Assembly (NCBI RefSeq): GCF_900289045.1
Contig: NZ_LT985188.1
Span: 1,674,001-1,738,000 of the forward strand
From: Micropruina glycogenica
GTDB lineage: Bacteria > Actinomycetota > Actinomycetes > Propionibacteriales > Propionibacteriaceae
Reading direction: 5' to 3'
DNA length: 64,000 nt
The position numbers were made by a program, and so were the translations under genes. Under the pieces are notes generated by a model. The model saw nothing but the letters and a program-made list of their open reading frames with translations. It searched no databases and was not told the DNA's origin. Shown piece after piece: positions 34,823 through 59,370 of this stretch; position 1 is the stretch's first letter, and the number at the start of each line of letters is the position of its first letter.

Positions 34823-34876
34823 GTGTCGACAAAGAGGCTAATGGTCATTTCGCGACCGGCCGGACGCCACGCCGGT

Positions 34877-35227
34877 TCAGTGCGATTCGGCTGCCTGCCA
34901 CACCCCCAACTCGTTGCCGCTGGGGTCGGTGAAGTGGAATCGCCGCCCCCCGGGAAACTCGTAGGGCCCTGTGGCGATCGTTCCCCCGGACGGCCTCGAC
35001 CGTCGCGTCGAGGTCGTCGGAGTACAGCAGCACCAGCGGATTGCCGCCGGCCCGGCCATCGCCGGTGGCGTTGAAACCGCTGATCTCGCCGGTGCCGCCG
35101 GGTGCCACGATGCCTGCGTAACCGGGGGCGTCCGCCAGTCGAAGGCTGCGGTGGAGAAGGCCTTGACGGCCGGCAGATCGAGTGCGGTGAACGCGAGGTA
35201 GTCGATCGCGTGATGCGTTGGTGCCAT
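34877..35227 (-). pseudogene. VOC (glyoxalase/bleomycin-resistance-like) protein with two compensating frameshifts
   Basis: It starts MAPTHHAIDYLAFTALDLPAVKAF in one frame. The middle (APGYAGIVAPGGTGEISGFN...LVLLYSDDLDATVEAVR) is in a second frame. The end (GPYEFPGGRRFHFTDPSGNELGVWQ) is back in the first. Joined, these give a normal ~117-residue VOC protein. The breaks are near 35125-35135 and in the C-run at 34980-34988. Either the gene is decaying or two small sequence errors are present. Confidence 0.75.
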
Positions 35228-35332
35228 GCGGCGCACTGTCACTGTGCCCTGTGACAGAACCTTTCAGGCCGCCAGCTCGGCCACCACCAGCCCGCCGCCC
35301 ACGACGTCGGCGCGGCCGTGGGTGGCCGCGCC

Positions 35333-36496
35333 TCAACCGGTGGGGTTGGCCTCGACGCCGTGCGGAAGCCGGGCGACCAGTCGCCATTCGGTGCCTGCTC
35401 GGGTCTGCTCGCTGGTGCCGCCCAGCAGCGCCAGCCTTTCGCGCACGCCGGTCAACCCCATGCCGGGCGCCGCGGCCGACTGCGCGCCCGCGGTGTTGGT
35501 GTAGGTGGCAACCACGTCGTCGCCGTCGTCGCGAATGTCGATGCGGCACAGGGTGCCGGGTGCCGCGTGGCGCACCATGTTGTTCACCGCCTCGACGGTC
35601 ACCGCACTCAGCGCCTGCGCCCGCGCGGCGCTCAGCCGGCCCACACCCACCTCGGACTCGGCGGTGAAGCCCGCGGTGACGAGTCGCTCGACCTGCTGCT
35701 CGACGGTCGCGCGCAGGGTCCCGAGGCTCGCCAGCGGTACACCTGCGGACGGCTCCCGTCCGCGCAACCGGCCCAGAATCTGACGCAGGTCGTGCGCCGA
35801 TGACCGGCACTGCTCAGCGATCCATTCCAAGTCGGTGCGCACCTCGCCGGGTACGTCAGTCTCAGCCAGCGCCAGGTGTGCTCGCATCGCCGTGGCCGAC
35901 AGCGTTTGCGCCACGGTGTCGTGCAGGTCGCGGGCGAGTTCGAGGCGAAACTCCTCCAGGTCGGCCGCGGCCCGCTCACGCTCCTGCTGCAGCAGCCGGT
36001 AGCGCCGATGCCACAGCGCACCCGATCCGACCGCCACGCCGAGGAACACCGCCCAGAGCAGCGATGACCCCCAGTACCGTTCGGGTTCGACGCCCGATCG
36101 AACAATCATCACTGCGAAGAGCAGCCCTGCCACGACGAGCGTCAGAGGTAACCGCCACGACAGGTTCTTGCGATGGGCCGCAAACACGACGATCAGCACA
36201 CCCAGGCCACTGACGCTCGGCCCAGCATCGGGAATCACCAGCCAGACCGCGAGGCCGAGGGCCGCCACACTCGCCCCAACCAGGGGCCAGCGGTAGGCGG
36301 CGGCGGCGCCGGCACACGTCACGATGTCGATCCACAGGTAGTGCGGCCACGGCTCCCCGTAGCTCGCGACCAGCGACACGATCAATAGTGCGCTCGCGAG
36401 CGCCGGCTCAAGCCACAGCGCCTCACCCTTGACAGGACGCTGAGCAGCCACCATGAAGGCAGCGTAGCGAGCCTGCTCCCCACCGATTGGGTTCAT
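35333..36496 (-). CDS. NarL-family sensor histidine kinase
   Basis: This 387-residue membrane kinase has about six membrane segments in residues 30-162. A coiled linker (RRYRLLQQERERAAADLEEF) and the HisKA_3 dimerisation helix with ELARDLHDTVAQTLSATAMR (H192) follow. The HATPase domain has VTVEAVNNMVRHAA (N box) and GMGLTGVRERLALLGG. The ATG overlaps the stop of a 47-codon ORF (ATGA). A matching NarL-type regulator lies at 41065-41694 on the same strand, beyond the bacteriocin genes. It is likely the sensor that controls them (inference). Confidence 0.92.
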   Translation of the reverse strand: MNPIGGEQARYAAFMVAAQRPVKGEALWLEPALASALLIVSLVASYGEPWPHYLWIDIVTCAGAAAAYRWPLVGASVAALGLAVWLVIPDAGPSVSGLGVLIVVFAAHRKNLSWRLPLTLVVAGLLFAVMIVRSGVEPERYWGSSLLWAVFLGVAVGSGALWHRRYRLLQQERERAAADLEEFRLELARDLHDTVAQTLSATAMRAHLALAETDVPGEVRTDLEWIAEQCRSSAHDLRQILGRLRGREPSAGVPLASLGTLRATVEQQVERLVTAGFTAESEVGVGRLSAARAQALSAVTVEAVNNMVRHAAPGTLCRIDIRDDGDDVVATYTNTAGAQSAAAPGMGLTGVRERLALLGGTSEQTRAGTEWRLVARLPHGVEANPTG

Positions 36497-36636
36497 CTAC
36501 GACAGAAGTAGGGCGGCAGCCAGTCGCAGATGCCGTTGATTCGGCGAGCCACTCGCCGCACGGGCACGACGCGTGCGCCCAGGTGCAGCAATGGCATCGA
36601 CGCCACTATCAGTTCGATCACGTTCAGCATTGTCAT
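36493..36636 (-). CDS. 47-residue peptide translationally coupled to the kinase; possible signal peptide precursor
   Basis: An ATG at 36636 follows a strong Shine-Dalgarno region (GAGGAGATAGGAAG). The product has a hydrophobic first half (MTMLNVIELIVASMPLLHLG), a basic middle (RRVARR) and a C-terminus CDWLPPYFCRR with two cysteines seven residues apart. Its TGA overlaps the kinase ATG. Small peptides encoded directly before sensor kinases are often inducers, so it may be the ligand or a processed pheromone. It might instead be a second bacteriocin-like peptide or only a coupling leader. No family was recognised. Confidence 0.55.
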   Translation of the reverse strand: MTMLNVIELIVASMPLLHLGARVVPVRRVARRINGICDWLPPYFCRR

Positions 36637-36706
36637 CTTCCTATCTCCTCGGGGTGTGCTGGACGCGCGTCACGCTACGCACAAATCCCACCGCCATTGC
36701 CGGCCA

Positions 36707-36811
36707 GTCACCAGCGGGTGACACCCAGACACCACGGGCAGAGGGTTCGATCAACTTTCGGAGACTGTTGGCGCTCGCGCGATCAACTTCGGGTGACAGT
36801 CGCTGGCGCGC
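36707..36811. promoter_or_regulatory. Palindrome and 32-bp direct repeat in the kinase/bacteriocin divergent region
   Basis: GTCACC-AGCG-GGTGAC (36707-36722) is a perfect 6+6 palindrome. Downstream CGATCAACTTTCGG (36748) and CGATCAACTTCGGG (36780) start two related ~32-bp units, each continuing into TGTTGGCGCTCGCG or AGTCGCTGGCGCG. They lie between the two divergent small-peptide genes and could be operator sites for the NarL-type regulator. No convincing -10/-35 pair was found by eye. Confidence 0.45.
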
Positions 36812-36840
36812 CGCGTCTGCACTGGGCTGAATGGACACCA

Positions 36841-36860
36841 GCCGCGGAAAGGTCCGCGGC
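36841..36860 (+). promoter_or_regulatory. Hairpin before the bacteriocin ribosome-binding site
   Basis: GCCGCGGA-AAGG-TCCGCGGC is a perfect 8-bp stem with a four-base loop, ending 26 nt before the ATG. The purine-rich ribosome-binding sequence AGGGGGGG (36871-36878) follows. It may stabilise the mRNA 5' end or be part of a regulatory leader. Confidence 0.55.
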
Positions 36861-36886
36861 CTCAACGCCGAGGGGGGGTGAAGAAC

Positions 36887-37051
36887 ATGTGGAGCATCTT
36901 TCTTCGTATCGTCGCTTTGATCGCCAAGTACGGCAAGCGGGCAGTCGATTGGTGCTGGGCAAACCGTAACCGAATCTATGACTGGATTCGCAACGGAATG
37001 GCAGTCGACTGGATCATCAATCGCATTCTGGAAATTCTCGGTCTGCGCTGA
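36887..37051 (+). CDS. Leaderless class II bacteriocin, aureocin A53 / lacticin Q type
   Basis: This 54-residue peptide has no signal or leader. It is cationic (9 Arg/Lys against 4 Asp/Glu) and rich in Trp at positions 2, 22, 24, 33 and 42. From memory, lacticin Q shares the core AKYG..AV.W.WAN...I.DW...G.A.DW....I..ILG, and the present peptide has AKYGKRAVDWCWANRNRIYD, then DWI, VDWIINRILEILGLR at matching positions and nearly equal length. Differences include a Cys at 23 where lacticin Q has Ala. Such peptides fold as four helices, act directly on membranes of other Gram-positives, and need no processing. The five genes downstream match the known transport/immunity set. It has a strong purine-rich ribosome-binding site. 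Confidence 0.88.
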   Translation: MWSIFLRIVALIAKYGKRAVDWCWANRNRIYDWIRNGMAVDWIINRILEILGLR

Positions 37052-37057
37052 CAGATG

Positions 37058-37098
37058 AGGGTGGTTGGCGCTGATCGAAGCAGCACCAACCACCCTTT
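37058..37098 (+). terminator. Strong hairpin after the bacteriocin gene (probable leaky terminator)
   Basis: AGGGTGGTTGG (37058-37068) pairs perfectly with CCAACCACCCT (37086-37096). GCTG/CAGC extends the stem inside the loop, and TTTC follows. It begins 7 nt after the stop. A partial terminator here would favour the short bacteriocin mRNA over the transport/immunity genes, a common design. Confidence 0.65.
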
Positions 37099-37132
37099 CA
37101 GCCCACTGTACTACCCCGAGTTGGAGAGAGCC

Positions 37133-37408
37133 ATGTACCTTCCTCGCATCGACGGCGCCTATCTGGCTGTTGCGGCCGGCGTGCTACTTGTCGTACTGGC
37201 GCACGGGTGGCTGATCCGTCGTCAAGCCAGGTGGCCGAGTCTCGTCGTGCCTGTGCTGTACGTGGTCGGAGTCGGCTACCTGGCCGCCGTCGGCCTGATG
37301 CGCTCACCCCTGGACTACCTGTTCGCAGCGTTCGGCCTGGCAGGGCTCCTGCTCTGGCCGGCCCAGGTGCGACGCACCCCTCAGGAGGTGCGTCGTGTGT
37401 CGCGGTGA
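37133..37408 (+). CDS. Small membrane protein of the bacteriocin cluster (LnqB position)
   Basis: This 91-residue protein has three hydrophobic segments: AYLAVAAGVLLVVLAHGWL, LVVPVLYVVGVGYLAAVGL and YLFAAFGLAGLLLW. They are joined by basic loops, and the tail is basic (RRTPQEVRRVSR). The ATG at 37133 follows GGAGAG; the upstream in-frame start has no support. It occupies the place of the small membrane gene that follows the structural gene in lacticin Q-type clusters. It probably helps immunity or secretion, but sequence homology is not established. Confidence 0.7.
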   Translation: MYLPRIDGAYLAVAAGVLLVVLAHGWLIRRQARWPSLVVPVLYVVGVGYLAAVGLMRSPLDYLFAAFGLAGLLLWPAQVRRTPQEVRRVSR

Positions 37409-37874
37409 CCGGTGGCGCACGCTGCCCGTCGCGGCGGTCGGACTGTGGCGTCTGCACGCGGTGGCATCGGCGGTGATCTTCAGCGCCCTGCTGTGGCTCG
37501 CAGGTTGGTACTGGTGGCCGTCCGACTGGTTGAAGGCACTGGCGTGGATCGGAATCGCCGTGGGTGCCGTGTCGACAGTCGCAGAGCTGATCTGGCTGAT
37601 TCCACGCCGATGGCGCGCCTACCGCTACTGCCTGGACGAGCGCGGCCTACGCCAGCGCGAAGGGGTGCTGGTTGCGCGCAGTCTGACCGTTCCGGCGAAC
37701 CAGATTCTCTTCGTGGACGTCCGTGAGGGCCCTGTTCAGCGTGCCCTGGGTCTGAGCACGGTCCGCATCGGCACGCTCGGCTCGACCCACGACCTCGGCC
37801 CGGTGGGCGCGGAAGAGGCGGCGGCCCTGGCCCAGGCTCACCTCAACCGGACGGTCGATCATGCGCCGCGTTAG
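37395..37874 (+). CDS. bPH2-domain membrane protein, YdbS-like (LnqC position)
   Basis: This 159-residue protein has two adjacent membrane helices (about residues 22-42 and 47-69). One bacterial PH domain of the DUF304/bPH2 type follows: YRYCLDERGLRQREGVLVARSLTVPANQILFVDVREGPVQRALGLSTVRIGTLG. The GTG at 37395 is preceded by AGGAGG at the right spacing and overlaps the previous gene by 14 nt. Single-bPH2 proteins of this kind pair with multi-bPH2 proteins in aureocin A53 and lacticin Q clusters, where they serve secretion and self-protection. Confidence 0.85.
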   Translation: MCRGDRWRTLPVAAVGLWRLHAVASAVIFSALLWLAGWYWWPSDWLKALAWIGIAVGAVSTVAELIWLIPRRWRAYRYCLDERGLRQREGVLVARSLTVPANQILFVDVREGPVQRALGLSTVRIGTLGSTHDLGPVGAEEAAALAQAHLNRTVDHAPR

Positions 37875-39267
37875 CCCCCGCCTCATCGCGCTGCGGGCGG
37901 TCGACGCGGTCAAGGTCTACGTGCCCTTCATGTTGCTGCAGGGCGGCGTGGCCGAACGCCTGCCGCAATGGCTTCACCTGCCGTGGACGCTGCTCGTGAT
38001 CTACTACTCGGCCACCCGCGTTCAGGTACTGCTCTTCGACTGGTTGACCACTCGCTTCGCCGTCACCGGCGACGGCATCAGCCTGCAAACCGGTTGGCCC
38101 ACTCGGCAGGTCGCCTTCGCCCGGTGGTCAGAGATCAGCGCGCTGTCGATCGACCAAGACCTGTCGCACCGCCTGATCGGGGCGAGCCGGATACGCGCAG
38201 TGATCGGCGCAGAGGGCCGCGAGGATCTGCTGCTGGAGGCAATGGACGCCGATCAGGTCGCCCGGGTGCGAGCCCTCTACGCAGAGCACTCGGCCTCGGG
38301 CCGTGCAGCGGCAGCGGCCGCAGAGTCACCCACTGCGTCGGCGGCCGGCACCGTGCCCGGCACGTTGATCTACTCGGCGTCGCTGCGCGACAAGGCCCTG
38401 ATCTCACTGACCCATGCCAAGTTCCTGCTCATCATCCCTTTCGTGCTCGGCGCCTACAACGACCTCGCCGAGCCACTGCGCCTGCCCAGCGGCACCGGGT
38501 TGATCGAGCAGGTGCTGAGCGGCGACCCGACGGTGCTCGCGGCCGCCGTCGCCCTGGCGTTCGCTTTCGGCTTCGTGCGGGCGTCGATCACCTTTCACGA
38601 GTTTCGGGTGAGCCGTGAAGGCTCCCGCTTCGTGAGCACCGGCGGCCTGTTTCACCATCAGGCGCGCGAGGCCGACCTCAGTCGAGTCGTGGGCGTTCGG
38701 TTGTCGCAGAATGTGCTGATGCGAGTGGTCGGCTGCAGCCGGCTCAGCCTCGTGGTCGACAACGCGCGTGGCGAGTTTCGTACGTTCGTCGTGCTGCCGG
38801 TTGCCACCAACGATCGGGCTCGCGGGCTGGCCCACGAACTCATGTCGGCCGATTGCGAGGTGGCCGCGCCCCCTCGGCCTCGGCCCGGCCTGAGCATCTG
38901 CGCCGCAACGGTGAGCACGTTGGTCAGCGTCATGCTGCTCTGGCACGGCTTGCCCTGGTTCGCCGCCTCGACGCTGGCCCTGGGTGTCGTACTGGCCGAC
39001 CGCTGGTACGCCGCCTTTGCGCCCGTCGCGCTGGGCAGCCTGAGCCATCGTCGAGGCTGGCTGGCCACCCGGCACTACCTGTTGCGCTTGTCCAGCGCCA
39101 GGTCGGCGACCAGTTGGCACCTGCCCGCCGGCCTGCGCACGTCATTGTTGCGGGTGACGGTGATGGACCGTCGGCCGGTCGGCCTCTGGGGCGCGCGCAC
39201 CCCCACCACCGAGTGTGACGAGCTGGGCGACCTGATTCTGCTGACCAACCAAGGAGCGAACCGATGA
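37861..39267 (+). CDS. Multi-bPH2 membrane protein, YdbT-like (LnqD position)
   Basis: This 468-residue protein alternates membrane pairs with bPH2 domains. Helices at about 14-60 precede a first domain (RFAVTGDGISLQTGWPTRQVAFARW). Helices at 187-240 precede a second (FRVSREGSRFVSTGGLFHHQAREADLSRVVGVRLSQN). Helices at 344-380 precede a third, weaker one (LGSLSHRRGWLATRHYLL). It overlaps the previous gene by 14 nt and the next by 4 nt. This architecture matches the large bPH2 protein of leaderless bacteriocin clusters (AucE/LnqD type). Confidence 0.85.
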   Translation: MRRVSPRLIALRAVDAVKVYVPFMLLQGGVAERLPQWLHLPWTLLVIYYSATRVQVLLFDWLTTRFAVTGDGISLQTGWPTRQVAFARWSEISALSIDQDLSHRLIGASRIRAVIGAEGREDLLLEAMDADQVARVRALYAEHSASGRAAAAAAESPTASAAGTVPGTLIYSASLRDKALISLTHAKFLLIIPFVLGAYNDLAEPLRLPSGTGLIEQVLSGDPTVLAAAVALAFAFGFVRASITFHEFRVSREGSRFVSTGGLFHHQAREADLSRVVGVRLSQNVLMRVVGCSRLSLVVDNARGEFRTFVVLPVATNDRARGLAHELMSADCEVAAPPRPRPGLSICAATVSTLVSVMLLWHGLPWFAASTLALGVVLADRWYAAFAPVALGSLSHRRGWLATRHYLLRLSSARSATSWHLPAGLRTSLLRVTVMDRRPVGLWGARTPTTECDELGDLILLTNQGANR

Positions 39268-40184
39268 TCGAGATCTGCGGAGTGACCCGCACCTACGCCT
39301 CCACCCGGGCGTTGGACGGGGTGAGCTTCTGTGTGCCCGATGGAGCCGTCACCGGCTTCGTCGGCCCCAACGGTGCCGGCAAGTCCACCCTGATGCGGGT
39401 TGCGACGGGCCTTGAACTGCCTGACTCCGGTTCCGTCGTGGTCGATGGCACCCCACTGGGCGGACGAGCGGCGGGACAGGTGAAGGTGGGCGCACTGCTG
39501 GAGGCGGGGTGGGTGTTGCCGCGTCGAACCGCTCGCGACCACGTGCGCCTGGTCGCCATAGCCCTCGGTCTGCCGGCCTCGCGGGCCGAGCAGGTGCTCG
39601 CATTCACCGGCCTGACCGAGGTGGCCCATCACCCGATCGGCAGCTTCTCACTGGGCATGAAGCAACGCCTCGGCATCGCGACGGCCGTGCTGTCGGAGCC
39701 CCAGACCCTGTTGCTCGACGAACCGGCCAACGGCCTCGACCCCGACGGCGTGGCCTGGCTACGGCGCTTCGTGCGCGAGCTGGCCGGCCAGGGCAAAGCT
39801 GTGCTGATCTCGTCCCATCTGCTCAGCGAACTGGCCCAGACCGTCGACCGGATCGTCATGATCGGGCGCGGCCGCGTGCTGCACGAAGGGCCGTTGGGCG
39901 ACCTTCTCGTGGCCGACCGAAGCGTCAGTTTCGCTTCCTGCGACGACGACGCCTCGCTCGCCGTTCGTTGCCGCGAAGCCGGAGCCGAGGTCGTCAGGCT
40001 GCCCGACGGACGCCTGCGCATCGCCGGTTTGACGGTCATCGAGGTGAGCCGGCTGGCCCGCGACCATGACCTGCTCCTCACCCATCTCTCGGCGGCCATG
40101 GCCAGTCTTGAGGAGCGCTTTGCCGCGATCACCGAACAGCACGTCGACTACCGCGCCGGGCTCCACCCCGCCGCAGCCCGCTGA
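39264..40184 (+). CDS. ABC transporter ATPase of the bacteriocin cluster (LnqE position)
   Basis: This 306-residue ATPase has Walker A GFVGPNGAGKSTLM, the signature GSFSLGMKQRLGIATA, Walker B TLLLDEPANGLDPDG and the switch His in LISSHLLSEL. A C-terminal ~90-residue extension (SVSFASCDDDASLAVRC...) is typical of the CcmA/drug-export subgroup. It is ATGA-coupled to the bPH2 gene and 10 nt before the permease. With the permease it likely pumps the peptide out or removes it from the membrane. Confidence 0.9.
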   Translation: MIEICGVTRTYASTRALDGVSFCVPDGAVTGFVGPNGAGKSTLMRVATGLELPDSGSVVVDGTPLGGRAAGQVKVGALLEAGWVLPRRTARDHVRLVAIALGLPASRAEQVLAFTGLTEVAHHPIGSFSLGMKQRLGIATAVLSEPQTLLLDEPANGLDPDGVAWLRRFVRELAGQGKAVLISSHLLSELAQTVDRIVMIGRGRVLHEGPLGDLLVADRSVSFASCDDDASLAVRCREAGAEVVRLPDGRLRIAGLTVIEVSRLARDHDLLLTHLSAAMASLEERFAAITEQHVDYRAGLHPAAAR

Positions 40185-40194
40185 GGAGGCAATC

Positions 40195-40959
40195 ATGCTG
40201 AGCAACGCCGTCGGTTCCGAACTGATCAAACTGCGCGCTTACCGGCTGACTTACTGGCTGCTGCCGCTGGCTCTGGTGTTCTTGGTGACGGCCGCCGCCT
40301 TCGGGTTCGACTCCGTTCGCCTCTCGGCGGCTGAGGCGGCGCCGCAGTCTGTTCTGATCGACAGCGCGGCGTACGCCTTCGGCCTGGGTTCGCCGCTGTC
40401 AGGGCTGGTGCTGGGTGTGTTCGCTGCGTTGATCGTGACCGCCGATCAGGGCAGCGGCACCATCTACCAGTCGTTGCTGGTGCTGTCGCGCCGTACCGTG
40501 GTGCTGGCCAAGGTGTTGGCCAGTGGTGCGGCGGCCGCGCTGATCACTGCGGTCGGCACCTTCGCCATCGCTGCGGTGGCGCTGGTCATGCTGCCCGGCA
40601 GCCTGGTCGGCGCTCTGGCCGCGGCTCCGGCACTGTGGGTGACGCTGGCGGGCACGCTGGTGAGTCATCTCACCTGGGTGGCCGTCGGCTTGGGCTTCAG
40701 CCTGCTGCTGCAGCGCCAGGCGAGCGCGGTGGGCGCCATGGTGATGCTGCTCTTCGTCGTGCCCATGGTGGGAGCGGCGCTCGTTGCCGCCGGACGCACC
40801 CAGAACTGGCTCGGGTACCTTCCGGCCGGCCTCATGCAGACCGCGACCGGAACCGTCACAGCGCAGCCGGGCCCGACCGCCCTGCTCGCGTGTGTGCTGC
40901 TACTTGGCTGGTGCCTCGCGTTCGTCGAAGCCGGCTGGCTGCGCTTTCGACGCCGCTAG
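40195..40959 (+). CDS. ABC transporter permease of the bacteriocin cluster (LnqF position)
   Basis: This 254-residue ABC-2-type permease has six hydrophobic segments, starting with a cytosolic amphipathic part (SNAVGSELIKLRAYRLTYWLLPLAL). The EMRSGT-like loop TADQGSGTIYQSLLVLSRR is characteristic of permeases that work with CcmA-type ATPases. The ATG at 40195 follows GAGGAGG (40183-40189); the longer frame starting at 40066 lies inside the ATPase gene and is rejected. It is the last gene of the cluster, and a hairpin follows at 41016. Confidence 0.88.
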   Translation: MLSNAVGSELIKLRAYRLTYWLLPLALVFLVTAAAFGFDSVRLSAAEAAPQSVLIDSAAYAFGLGSPLSGLVLGVFAALIVTADQGSGTIYQSLLVLSRRTVVLAKVLASGAAAALITAVGTFAIAAVALVMLPGSLVGALAAAPALWVTLAGTLVSHLTWVAVGLGFSLLLQRQASAVGAMVMLLFVVPMVGAALVAAGRTQNWLGYLPAGLMQTATGTVTAQPGPTALLACVLLLGWCLAFVEAGWLRFRRR

Positions 40960-41015
40960 AACCGTGGGTCTGCGACGGCCACACTGGTCGAGCGCGTCGA
41001 GTATGTCTCGTGGGG

Positions 41016-41034
41016 TCGGCGGACTCCCCGCCGA
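41016..41034. terminator. Hairpin between convergent permease and response regulator genes
   Basis: TCGGCGG (41016-41022) pairs with CCGCCGA (41028-41034) around ACTCC. It lies in the 105-bp gap between convergent genes and has no U-run on either side. It may end transcription from both directions weakly. Confidence 0.45.
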
Positions 41035-41064
41035 ACCAACCGACGACGATGACGTGATCGGGCC

Positions 41065-41694
41065 TCAGCCGACCACGACCCCCCACTCGTGGGCGCGGGC
41101 TGCCAGTTGGGCGCGGCTGCGGCTGTCGGTCTTGCGCAGCAGCCGGCTCACGTAGGTCTTCACGGTGCTGGGGGCCAGATGCAGGGCGTCGCCGATGTCA
41201 CCGTTGTTCAGGCCCTGCCCGACCAGGCCGAGCAACTCGACGTCGGCGTCGTTGAGGTGCTTGGGCCGAGCCCCGACAGTGGTGATGCCGCGAAGAACCT
41301 GAGCGGTCAGCTTGGGTGACACCAGGGCGTCGCCCTCGTAGGCGCTGCGTATCGCTTGAACCAGCAGGGCCGGTGGATCGACCTTGAGCAGAAACCCACT
41401 GGCCCCTGCCGACAACGCGGCCCGCATCGACGATTCGTCGCCCAGCGCGGTGAAACACAACGCCCGAGGCGGGTCGGGCAGAGCGAACACCGCTTTGAGC
41501 AGCTCCAGCCCGTTCAGGTGCGGCATATGCAGATCGGTGATCAGCACGTCCGGGTGCAGCGATTCGACCAGGGCGAGCGCCTTCGCGCCATCGCCGGCAA
41601 TGTCGAGCACCTCGATGTCGGGCACCGGGGCCAGGTATCCGCGAATCGCGCGTTGGGCCAGTGGATCGTCTTCGGCGGCCAGCACCCGAATCAT
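41065..41694 (-). CDS. NarL/LuxR-family response regulator
   Basis: This 209-residue regulator has a receiver domain with acidic pocket AAEDD, phosphoacceptor D54 (DVLITDLHMP), Thr in CFTALGDES and K104 (FLLKVD). The C-terminal LuxR helix-turn-helix follows (LNDADVELLGLVGQGLNNGDIGDALHLAPSTVKTYVSRLLRKTDSRSRAQLA). It is the natural partner of the kinase at 35333-36496. The two would be adjacent if the plus-strand bacteriocin genes were removed. The likely targets are the repeats at 36707-36811. Confidence 0.93.
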   Translation of the reverse strand: MIRVLAAEDDPLAQRAIRGYLAPVPDIEVLDIAGDGAKALALVESLHPDVLITDLHMPHLNGLELLKAVFALPDPPRALCFTALGDESSMRAALSAGASGFLLKVDPPALLVQAIRSAYEGDALVSPKLTAQVLRGITTVGARPKHLNDADVELLGLVGQGLNNGDIGDALHLAPSTVKTYVSRLLRKTDSRSRAQLAARAHEWGVVVG

Positions 41695-54224: not shown

Positions 54225-54230
54225 ATAAAG

Positions 54231-54347
54231 TCCGGCGACGTCCTACTCTCCCACAGGGTCCCCCCTGCAGTACCATCGGCGCTGAGCAGCTTAGCTTCCG
54301 GGTTCGGAATGGAGCCGGGCGTTTCCCGCTCGCCATGATCACCGTAA
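54231..54347 (-). rRNA. rrf: 5S ribosomal RNA
   Basis: About 117 nt. On the minus strand it begins TTACGGTGATCATGGCGAGC and ends GGAGAGTAGGACGTCGCCGGA-like sequence. It has the conserved CCGAACCCGGAAGCTAAGC loop region. The ends are estimated from pairing of the terminal stem. Confidence 0.95.
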
Positions 54348-54424
54348 CAACTATGGAGTTTTGATCGGAGTTCCCGACCGTTGCTCGGGAACCGCACAGT
54401 GGACGCGTAGCACCTTTGTAGGAA

Positions 54425-59370
<4,946 letters not shown>

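Follow-up and report, generated by a model that had tools for sequence, protein, structure and literature searches.

A leaderless bacteriocin locus of Micropruina glycogenica and a candidate peptide-signal module on its flanks

We analyzed a stretch of 64,000 nucleotides from the wastewater bacterium Micropruina glycogenica (contig NZ_LT985188.1, positions 1,674,001 to 1,738,000 of the forward strand; hereafter, the window), in which an aureocin A53/lacticin Q-type bacteriocin operon is flanked by genes for a histidine kinase and a response regulator, with a small open reading frame (ORF) for a Cys-loop peptide next to the kinase gene (Table 1). The G+C content of the window is 67.6%, and the genome consists of 3,844,677 bases in one contig. 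A first-pass annotation of this DNA had described a cluster of six genes (36887–40959). All six ORFs were present in the order, at the positions and with the contents given there, but the conserved locus also takes in the kinase and the 47-residue ORF on the left and the regulator on the right, all of which had been overlooked. L and G numbers below are our labels for the loci and genomes compared.

Table 1. Features of the bacteriocin locus and its flanks (positions in the window)
Feature	Position	Strand	Evidence
HisKA_3 (HPK7-type) histidine kinase, multi-helix membrane N-terminus; candidate peptide receptor	35333..36496	-	PF07730 9.9e-14; hydrophobic segments before the kinase core
47-residue Cys-loop peptide ...INGICDWLPPYFCRR, candidate signal precursor	36493..36636	-	AGGAG ribosome site before ATG; counterparts beside related kinases
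Divergent promoter region common to the peptide-kinase and bacteriocin operons, 250 bp	36637..36886	.	sequence
AAGTTGATC box 2, 32 bp from box 1	36749..36757	-	exact copy
AAGTTGATC box 1, candidate response-regulator site	36781..36789	-	exact copy
Aureocin A53/lacticin Q-type leaderless bacteriocin, 54 residues	36887..37051	+	profile, PDB sequence match, AlphaFold2 fold
Strong stem-loop just 3' of the bacteriocin stop; candidate attenuator or mRNA-processing site that would keep the peptide above the accessory genes	37057..37097	+	folding z -6.0
Small two-helix membrane protein, 91 residues (open frame from 37055); candidate immunity/transport helper	37133..37408	+	two hydrophobic segments; homologues
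Single-domain bPH2 membrane protein	37395..37874	+	PF03703 8.7e-12
Multi-domain bPH2 membrane protein, 468 residues	37861..39267	+	PF03703 1.9e-13, two stretches pass; homologues in bacteriocin loci L007-L010
ABC transporter ATPase	39264..40184	+	PF00005 6.8e-28; best NCBIfam match galliderm_ABC, under its cut-off
ABC-2 type permease	40195..40959	+	PF12679 1.8e-9
LuxR/NarL-type response regulator, convergent with the permease	41065..41694	-	PF00072 1.8e-19, PF00196 2.7e-9; L007 orthologue in the same place, 78% identity

The bacteriocin operon

The product of the first gene is a leaderless bacteriocin of the aureocin A53/lacticin Q type by profile, fold and gene content, at a level far above chance, and the type assigned to the cluster by the first-pass annotation is thereby borne out. 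The profile search proposed there as a check, in which a lack of matches was to count against the assignment, gave Pfam Bacteriocin_IIi (PF11758, 3.9e-19, 68.7 bits, cut-off 25) and NCBIfam aureocin_A53 (NF033881, 5.1e-22, 77.2 bits, cut-off 27), and among the sequences of solved structures in PDB lacticin Q was matched at 1.1e-17. The 54-residue peptide contains five Trp residues and has a net charge of approximately +5 (counted from the sequence). Its residue 5 onward pairs with lacticin Q residue 4 onward, the ORF corresponding to the mature peptide with no leader or signal sequence, and a Shine-Dalgarno-like stretch (GGGGGTGA) lies 5' of its ATG.

The AlphaFold2 model, for which the input was the window peptide and one Micropruina homologue, contained four helices (residues 2–15, 17–25, 27–35 and 40–51) in a compact fold with a mean predicted local distance difference test score of 93, in agreement with the four-helix fold that had been expected. 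Foldseek ranked lacticin Q, aureocin A53 and epidermicin first; the top match, lacticin Q, had a template modelling score of 0.80, a root-mean-square deviation of 1.4 and an E-value of 6.9e-3, and no E-value was below 0.001, which is possible with so short a chain. Cys23, previously put forward as a unique residue that could dimerise, was rejected as a special feature: the corresponding column holds Cys in only three of six aligned peptides, the other three having Ala, Val or Leu there. In one homologous locus from a metagenome-assembled genome (L007, ~7551, minus strand), the bacteriocin frame had no ATG, GTG or TTG before FLRIL, suggesting either an unusual start or an assembly fault.

The accessory genes of the bPH2 and ABC types, which are usual though not universal for aureocin A53-like loci, are present in the window cluster. 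The genes had been described as nearly all overlapping; three junctions do overlap (37395/37408, 37861/37874 and 39264/39267), but the remaining two of five do not. Similarly, the protein described as having three bPH2 domains is a multi-domain bPH2 protein, but only two bPH_2 stretches pass and the third is unconfirmed. The single-domain protein resembles the bPH proteins of other aureocin clusters, among them that of Parageobacillus, more closely than it does the YdbS-like protein of its own genome (64–72 bits against the Parageobacillus counterpart versus ~30 bits), and its assignment to the general YdbST kind, an outcome that the first-pass annotation would have taken as evidence against its proposal, was rejected on these scores. 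For the multi-domain protein the scores point both ways: the window protein gave 55 bits against the Parageobacillus one and 43 against the YdbT-like protein of its own genome, whereas the Parageobacillus protein gave 57 bits against the M. glycogenica YdbT-like protein and 37 against that of the window.

For the small membrane protein, the ATG at 37133 (MYLPRIDGAYLAV...) is the more likely start, which would give 91 residues, because the upstream frame from 37055 crosses the strong RNA hairpin at 37057–37097 and because homologues in L007, L009 and L044–L046 align from the 37133 start. The homologue in L008 aligns from residue 2 of the longer frame because the hairpin sequence itself is common to both loci. 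Homologues occur in the bacteriocin loci L007, L008 and L009. A homologue (34–39% identity) was also observed between the kinase and regulator genes in L044, L045 and L046 (genomes G041, G008 and G044, respectively), where no PF11758 match was found in the genomes and the gene may be an orphan immunity gene.

The hairpin just downstream of the bacteriocin gene had a folding energy of -30.8 kcal/mol (63-nt piece; z -6.0), and none of 200 shuffled sequences was as good. Arms similar to GTGGTTGGCGCTG/CAGCRCCAACCAC are found, with hardly any change, in L007 and L008; in L009 and L010, inverted repeats with a different sequence were seen by eye 3' of the bacteriocin genes. For LsbB, also a leaderless bacteriocin, a terminator-type element after the gene regulates it, according to work cited in PMC6249370; by analogy, the hairpin of the window may have a similar regulatory role. 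A second inverted repeat, GCCGCGGA/TCCGCGGC, lies at ~36840–36861, just 5' of the bacteriocin ribosome site; it folds as a hairpin that is not clearly beyond shuffled sequences (z -1.9).

PF11758 was detected in 5 of 198 genomes of the family Propionibacteriaceae, in 4 of 391 genomes of a sample of the order that overlaps in part with the family genomes, and, in a phylum sample of 396 genomes, only in the genome studied here. A sixth, diverged aureocin-like peptide of 58 residues was found by tblastn in G139 (locus L043), with a PF11758 score below the cut-off (0.065, 13.5 bits).

The two-component genes and the Cys-loop peptides

The kinase gene diverges from the bacteriocin operon and the regulator gene converges on it. 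The same eight-gene arrangement, with kinase and regulator bracketing the operon, is present in a second Micropruina genome (L007). We compared six aureocin-type loci (the window, L007, L008, L009, L010 and L043). Although gene order differs among them, five loci (all except L008) have a kinase nearby, five (all except L043, where none was found) have a related regulator by the bacteriocin, and four (all except L008 and L010) have a Cys-loop ORF. Approximately 100 kb from its bacteriocin locus, the L008 genome encodes a kinase accompanied by a motif ORF (L250). In the g4 genomes (L044–L049 and L051–L054), the genes around the kinase gene tend to be similar in size, which suggests a single fixed position on the chromosome; in L045, an iron-sulfur assembly gene identified by Pfam adjoins the kinase gene.

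The 47-residue ORF lies directly 5' of the kinase gene, overlaps its start by 4 nt and has the C-terminus ICDWLPPYFCRR (ending CDWLPPYFCRR). Among all 19 loci with the best-matching kinases (E <1e-47), 15 had a Cys-loop ORF just upstream on the same strand, 14 of them by pattern and one with a longer tail (L025) by eye; no such upstream ORF was present in L021, L023, L028 and L031. In the alignment of these 15 peptides, the only invariant columns were the two cysteines. When L019 and L027 were compared, the last 13 residues were identical and the N-termini differed. Several homologues showed, by eye, a Sec-like signal peptide at the N-terminus, a short variable linker and the loop, e.g., MKSLLASIVAVAVLGSGVIPIAAIQGDSLPPWLCNLFPMFCRR.

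A second batch of 20 kinase regions was picked by hand across genera, with the pattern Cys-x3-Pro-x2-4-Cys fixed beforehand, and this pattern was present somewhere in 13 of them. In genus g9 (L236–L242; genomes of 2.2–2.8 Mb), all seven loci had a signal-peptide-like Cys-loop ORF upstream of a HisKA_3 kinase. The peptides of this genus resemble MKKIITG...VPAQA...GLCTIYPNWC and end in a loop of the C-x2-hydrophobic-P-x-W-C type. The ratio of non-synonymous to synonymous polymorphism (pN/pS) was 0.18–0.67 in ten pairs of five g9 peptides and 0.44–0.64 in five pairs of Cys-loop peptides compared earlier, values that, for the pairs compared, show purifying selection on the predicted peptides. The M. 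glycogenica genome that contains the window has a second such system (L235, ~2692742–2694149), with another HisKA_3 kinase and a divergent signal-peptide-like Cys-loop ORF ending ...GVCDLFPFWPGC.

For a formal count, we required Cys-x2-hydrophobic-Pro-x2-4-Cys near the C-terminus of an ORF of at least 33 residues whose stop was located −900 to +100 nt from the estimated kinase start; Cys loops without Pro (L026 and L029) were scored as negative. Controls were mainly distant kinases from a scan of genome contigs with the kinase (79 loci, two of which were skipped for want of upstream sequence). Such ORFs accompanied 33 of 50 family kinases (21/30 in the first batch and 12/20 in the second) and 2 of 77 distant kinases (Fisher p 1.2e-15 overall and 1.3e-8 for the second batch alone, figures that overstate independence because the loci are related to each other). 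One of the two positive controls, L060, is itself from Propionibacteriaceae and looks genuine. A loose form of the motif occurred in 3.9% of random windows, and the strict motif had a background of 39 matches in 1204 kb, or 0.13 per 4.1 kb, with the genuine-looking L060 among the 39. Tested against random windows (3.9%), distant kinases (2/77, strict) and the strict-motif background, the possibility that the 47-residue peptide is a chance ORF was rejected.

On the kinase tree, whose labels were assigned partly by eye (37 positive of 129), peptide presence changed 10 times compared to a mean of 32.4 for shuffled labels; the peptide therefore travels with its kinase. A small precursor-like gene is genetically linked to the kinase and regulator. 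We also searched the 198 family genomes with a peptide profile, blind to kinases. All 15 training rows were recovered. At E<=1, matches appeared in 167 genomes and were mostly noise. Eight further matches had E<0.01, and five of these (G053, G125, G129, G122 and G126) lay within ~0.8 kb of a related kinase, the match in G053 being identical to a training row. Five representative Cys-loop peptides, including that of the window, had no match in Pfam or NCBIfam at the curated cut-offs. When 394 genomes of the class were searched with the profile, 56 genomes, the one studied here among them, had matches at E<=0.05; the best of the others (0.001) did not include the C-terminal part, and these loci were not inspected singly. 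We claim no evidence for Cys-loop peptides outside Propionibacteriaceae. In one genome (L232, G127:C28, 3290–9460), a kinase with a nearby motif ORF (L032, ...SPCIFAPWLSGCPR) has radical SAM/SPASM, M50 peptidase and ABC genes as neighbours, a setting resembling that of ribosomally synthesized and post-translationally modified peptides.

The region between the two divergent operons carries two exact copies of AAGTTGATC. With no more than one mismatch, this box occurred in the 300 nt before the peptide genes at 9 of 17 loci, giving ten sites, all on the strand of the gene and at −153 to −82; in random single-strand windows its frequency was 3.7%. The two boxes of the window are the only exact genome matches to a longer box pattern, which was itself derived from these two. 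In L010, an exact copy of AAGTTGATC is located approximately 150 nt before the bacteriocin gene.

Elsewhere in the window, a low-G+C dip at 54230–59366 (minus strand) is an ordinary rRNA operon (5S, 23S and 16S), and what resembles, by eye, a glyoxalase-type gene at 34845–35810 (minus strand) appears to be split over two frames, with a 121-residue piece that had no Pfam match.

A possible peptide-pheromone circuit and its alternatives

We lean towards the view that this is a self-contained leaderless bacteriocin locus that may be controlled by a circuit whose peptide pheromone belongs to a new family. The elements of this view that are supported are the family and fold of the bacteriocin, the gene content, the linkage of peptide, kinase and regulator, the C-terminal motif, the boxes, the stem-loop and, by eye in several homologues, the Sec-like N-termini. 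In the proposed circuit, the plus-strand operon would produce the 54-residue membrane-active bacteriocin, with the bPH2 proteins, the ABC pair and the small membrane protein probably aiding its export and tolerance, and the stem-loop, as a putative attenuator, probably keeping the peptide in excess over these helpers. The C-terminal Cys-x3-Pro-x3-Cys loop of the 47-residue precursor, probably closed by a disulfide, would be released outside the cell. The polytopic HisKA_3 kinase, as the presumed receptor, would read the loop and phosphorylate the LuxR-type regulator, which in turn may bind both AAGTTGATC boxes between the divergent operons and increase expression of both its own signal operon and the bacteriocin.

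Several observations weigh against this proposal. The motif was first noticed in three loci (the window, L007 and L009) and its pattern was refined while looking. The peptide of the window and most g1/g4 homologues have no clear signal peptide. No motif ORF was detected for 17 of the 50 family kinases, two of the positives in the formal count (L023 and L031) look like chance, and the loose motif was also present beside 7 of 76 distant kinases. AAGTTGATC, with up to one mismatch, was absent from 8 of 17 upstream regions. At the level of single loci, L008 has regulator and bacteriocin without a kinase or motif ORF in 16 kb, the kinase, regulator and bacteriocin of L010 are accompanied by a single, chance-like motif ORF, and no regulator was found in 18 kb around L043. 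Moreover, only five of the 198 family genomes have PF11758, and therefore a bacteriocin of this type is not what most peptide-kinase modules control. The relatedness of the loci noted with the formal count belongs here as well.

The main rival explanation is that the two-component system is a sensor of envelope stress or self-damage that raises immunity and export, in which case the Cys-loop peptide would be an accessory of the kinase (e.g., a redox or ligand-binding helper) and not an intercellular signal. HisKA_3/LuxR-type pairs are common stress sensors, and LiaS was among the weak NCBIfam matches, far below the cut-off. Inheritance of the peptide with the kinase, together with the 4-nt overlap in the window, would suit an accessory, and the small membrane protein homologue between kinase and regulator in three genomes lacking PF11758 is placed as an induced immunity gene would be. 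However, in several homologues a signal peptide appears, by eye, to be followed by a variable linker and, at the extreme C-terminus, by a conserved loop, an arrangement usual for signal precursors, and in the L019/L027 pair the loop is more conserved than the remainder. We therefore regard this explanation as unlikely, although it deserves serious consideration.

Still less probable is an ordinary bacteriocin cluster with the kinase, regulator and small ORF as unrelated bystanders. In the g4 genomes, most of which lack PF11758, the kinase-regulator-peptide module is found at other places, and L008 has neither kinase nor motif ORF, as expected for bystanders. On the other hand, in two Micropruina genomes the operon has the kinase gene on one side and the regulator gene on the other, the regulator stays by the bacteriocin in five of six loci despite altered gene order, and the shared promoter region has two boxes that are the sole exact genome matches to the window-derived pattern. 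The least probable explanation, that the Cys-loop peptides are themselves antimicrobial, with the kinase-regulator pair serving to regulate them or to give protection from them, draws on their being short, often aromatic and disulfide-capable (and, in the window, cationic) and on the radical SAM, M50 peptidase and ABC genes beside the kinase and motif ORF of G127, but the predicted loop has only 8–10 residues, the C-termini of other members are not cationic (e.g., ...CDLFPWLPGC), and no common exporter gene was noticed in the gene listings of the modules, whose neighbours were not systematically annotated.

If the peptide-pheromone circuit is extended from this locus to the family, it seems quite possible, though we put this more tentatively, that Propionibacteriaceae use an undescribed family of gene-encoded signals, made as exported Cys-x2-hydrophobic-Pro-x2-4-Cys precursors and each read by the neighbouring HisKA_3 kinase, one of which switches on the Micropruina bacteriocin. 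Such a family would be a first for two-component peptide pheromones in this part of the Actinomycetota; its loops would differ from species to species, and a genome would sometimes hold several systems. The presence of the motif beside kinases in several genera, including all seven loci in one of them, would carry the question beyond Micropruina. The peptide is short, synthesizable and probably disulfide-closed, and its gene adjoins that of the presumed receptor, so that the idea can be tested directly in an environmental type strain that grows in culture.

Comparison with known systems

Lacticin Q and aureocin A53 share with the window peptide the PF11758/NF033881 family, the fold and the lack of a leader. 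The lacticin Q cluster (lnqQBCDEF) contains bPH2-type and ABC accessory genes, as does an aureocin-family plasmid of Parageobacillus, and both types are found in the window. Plasmid pKW4 of Corynebacterium jeikeium K411 encodes a peptide with 50% identity over 48 residues along with an ABC ATPase and a PH-domain protein; unlike the window locus, it is plasmid-borne, and no kinase or response regulator is annotated in the stretch examined. In Actinomycetota, 97 such peptides are reported in the text of Hourigan et al. 2024 (PMC11580447), where synthetic arachnicin and arcanocin were active. These two share with the window the peptide family, the phylum and the PH-domain and ABC genes, and arachnicin, synthesized from a Propionibacteriaceae genome, also the bacterial family (PMC11580447). 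The earlier suggestion that the system was possibly new in this lineage is, accordingly, unsupported in view of these peptides and the C. jeikeium plasmid copy. The main text of the same paper mentions no kinase, pheromone or Micropruina, and one response regulator, in Brevilactibacter. The bacteriocin operon itself thus adds one member to a published family, and it is the flanking genes that matter more. As regards control, leaderless bacteriocins follow no common scheme, and lacticin Q is under LnqR, a TetR-family activator, according to the relevant part of PMC6131525. The window has, instead of LnqR, a kinase, a LuxR-type regulator and a small Cys-loop ORF on its flanks.

Two known peptide-signal systems have a similar layout. 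In the ComQXPA quorum-sensing system of Bacillus, a small precursor ORF lies by a polytopic HPK7/HisKA_3 kinase and a NarL/LuxR-type regulator, and the window likewise has a small ORF, an HPK7 (HisKA_3) kinase (PF07730) and a NarL/LuxR-type regulator (PF00072 and PF00196). Unlike ComX, which carries a modified Trp, the window family has two conserved Cys residues, and several homologues have Sec-like signal peptides. The agr system (AgrBDCA) also has a small precursor with a cyclic C-terminal region and a polytopic kinase, whereas the kinase and regulator of the window are from other families (HisKA_3 and LuxR). Neither a ComQ-like nor an AgrB domain was present among the nine genes scanned (35333–41694). 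Complete ComQXPA systems were reported in bacilli and clostridia in the accessible text of a 2022 survey (PMC8895600), and a review of quorum sensing in Actinobacteria (PMC4748050) names, in the part available, no peptide signal with a sensor kinase. Neither the linkage of this bacteriocin to a peptide-kinase-regulator module nor the Cys-loop family was described in the openly accessible literature searched, subscription papers and preprints excluded. The locus would work like such peptide-signal systems and is a member of neither ComQXPA nor agr.

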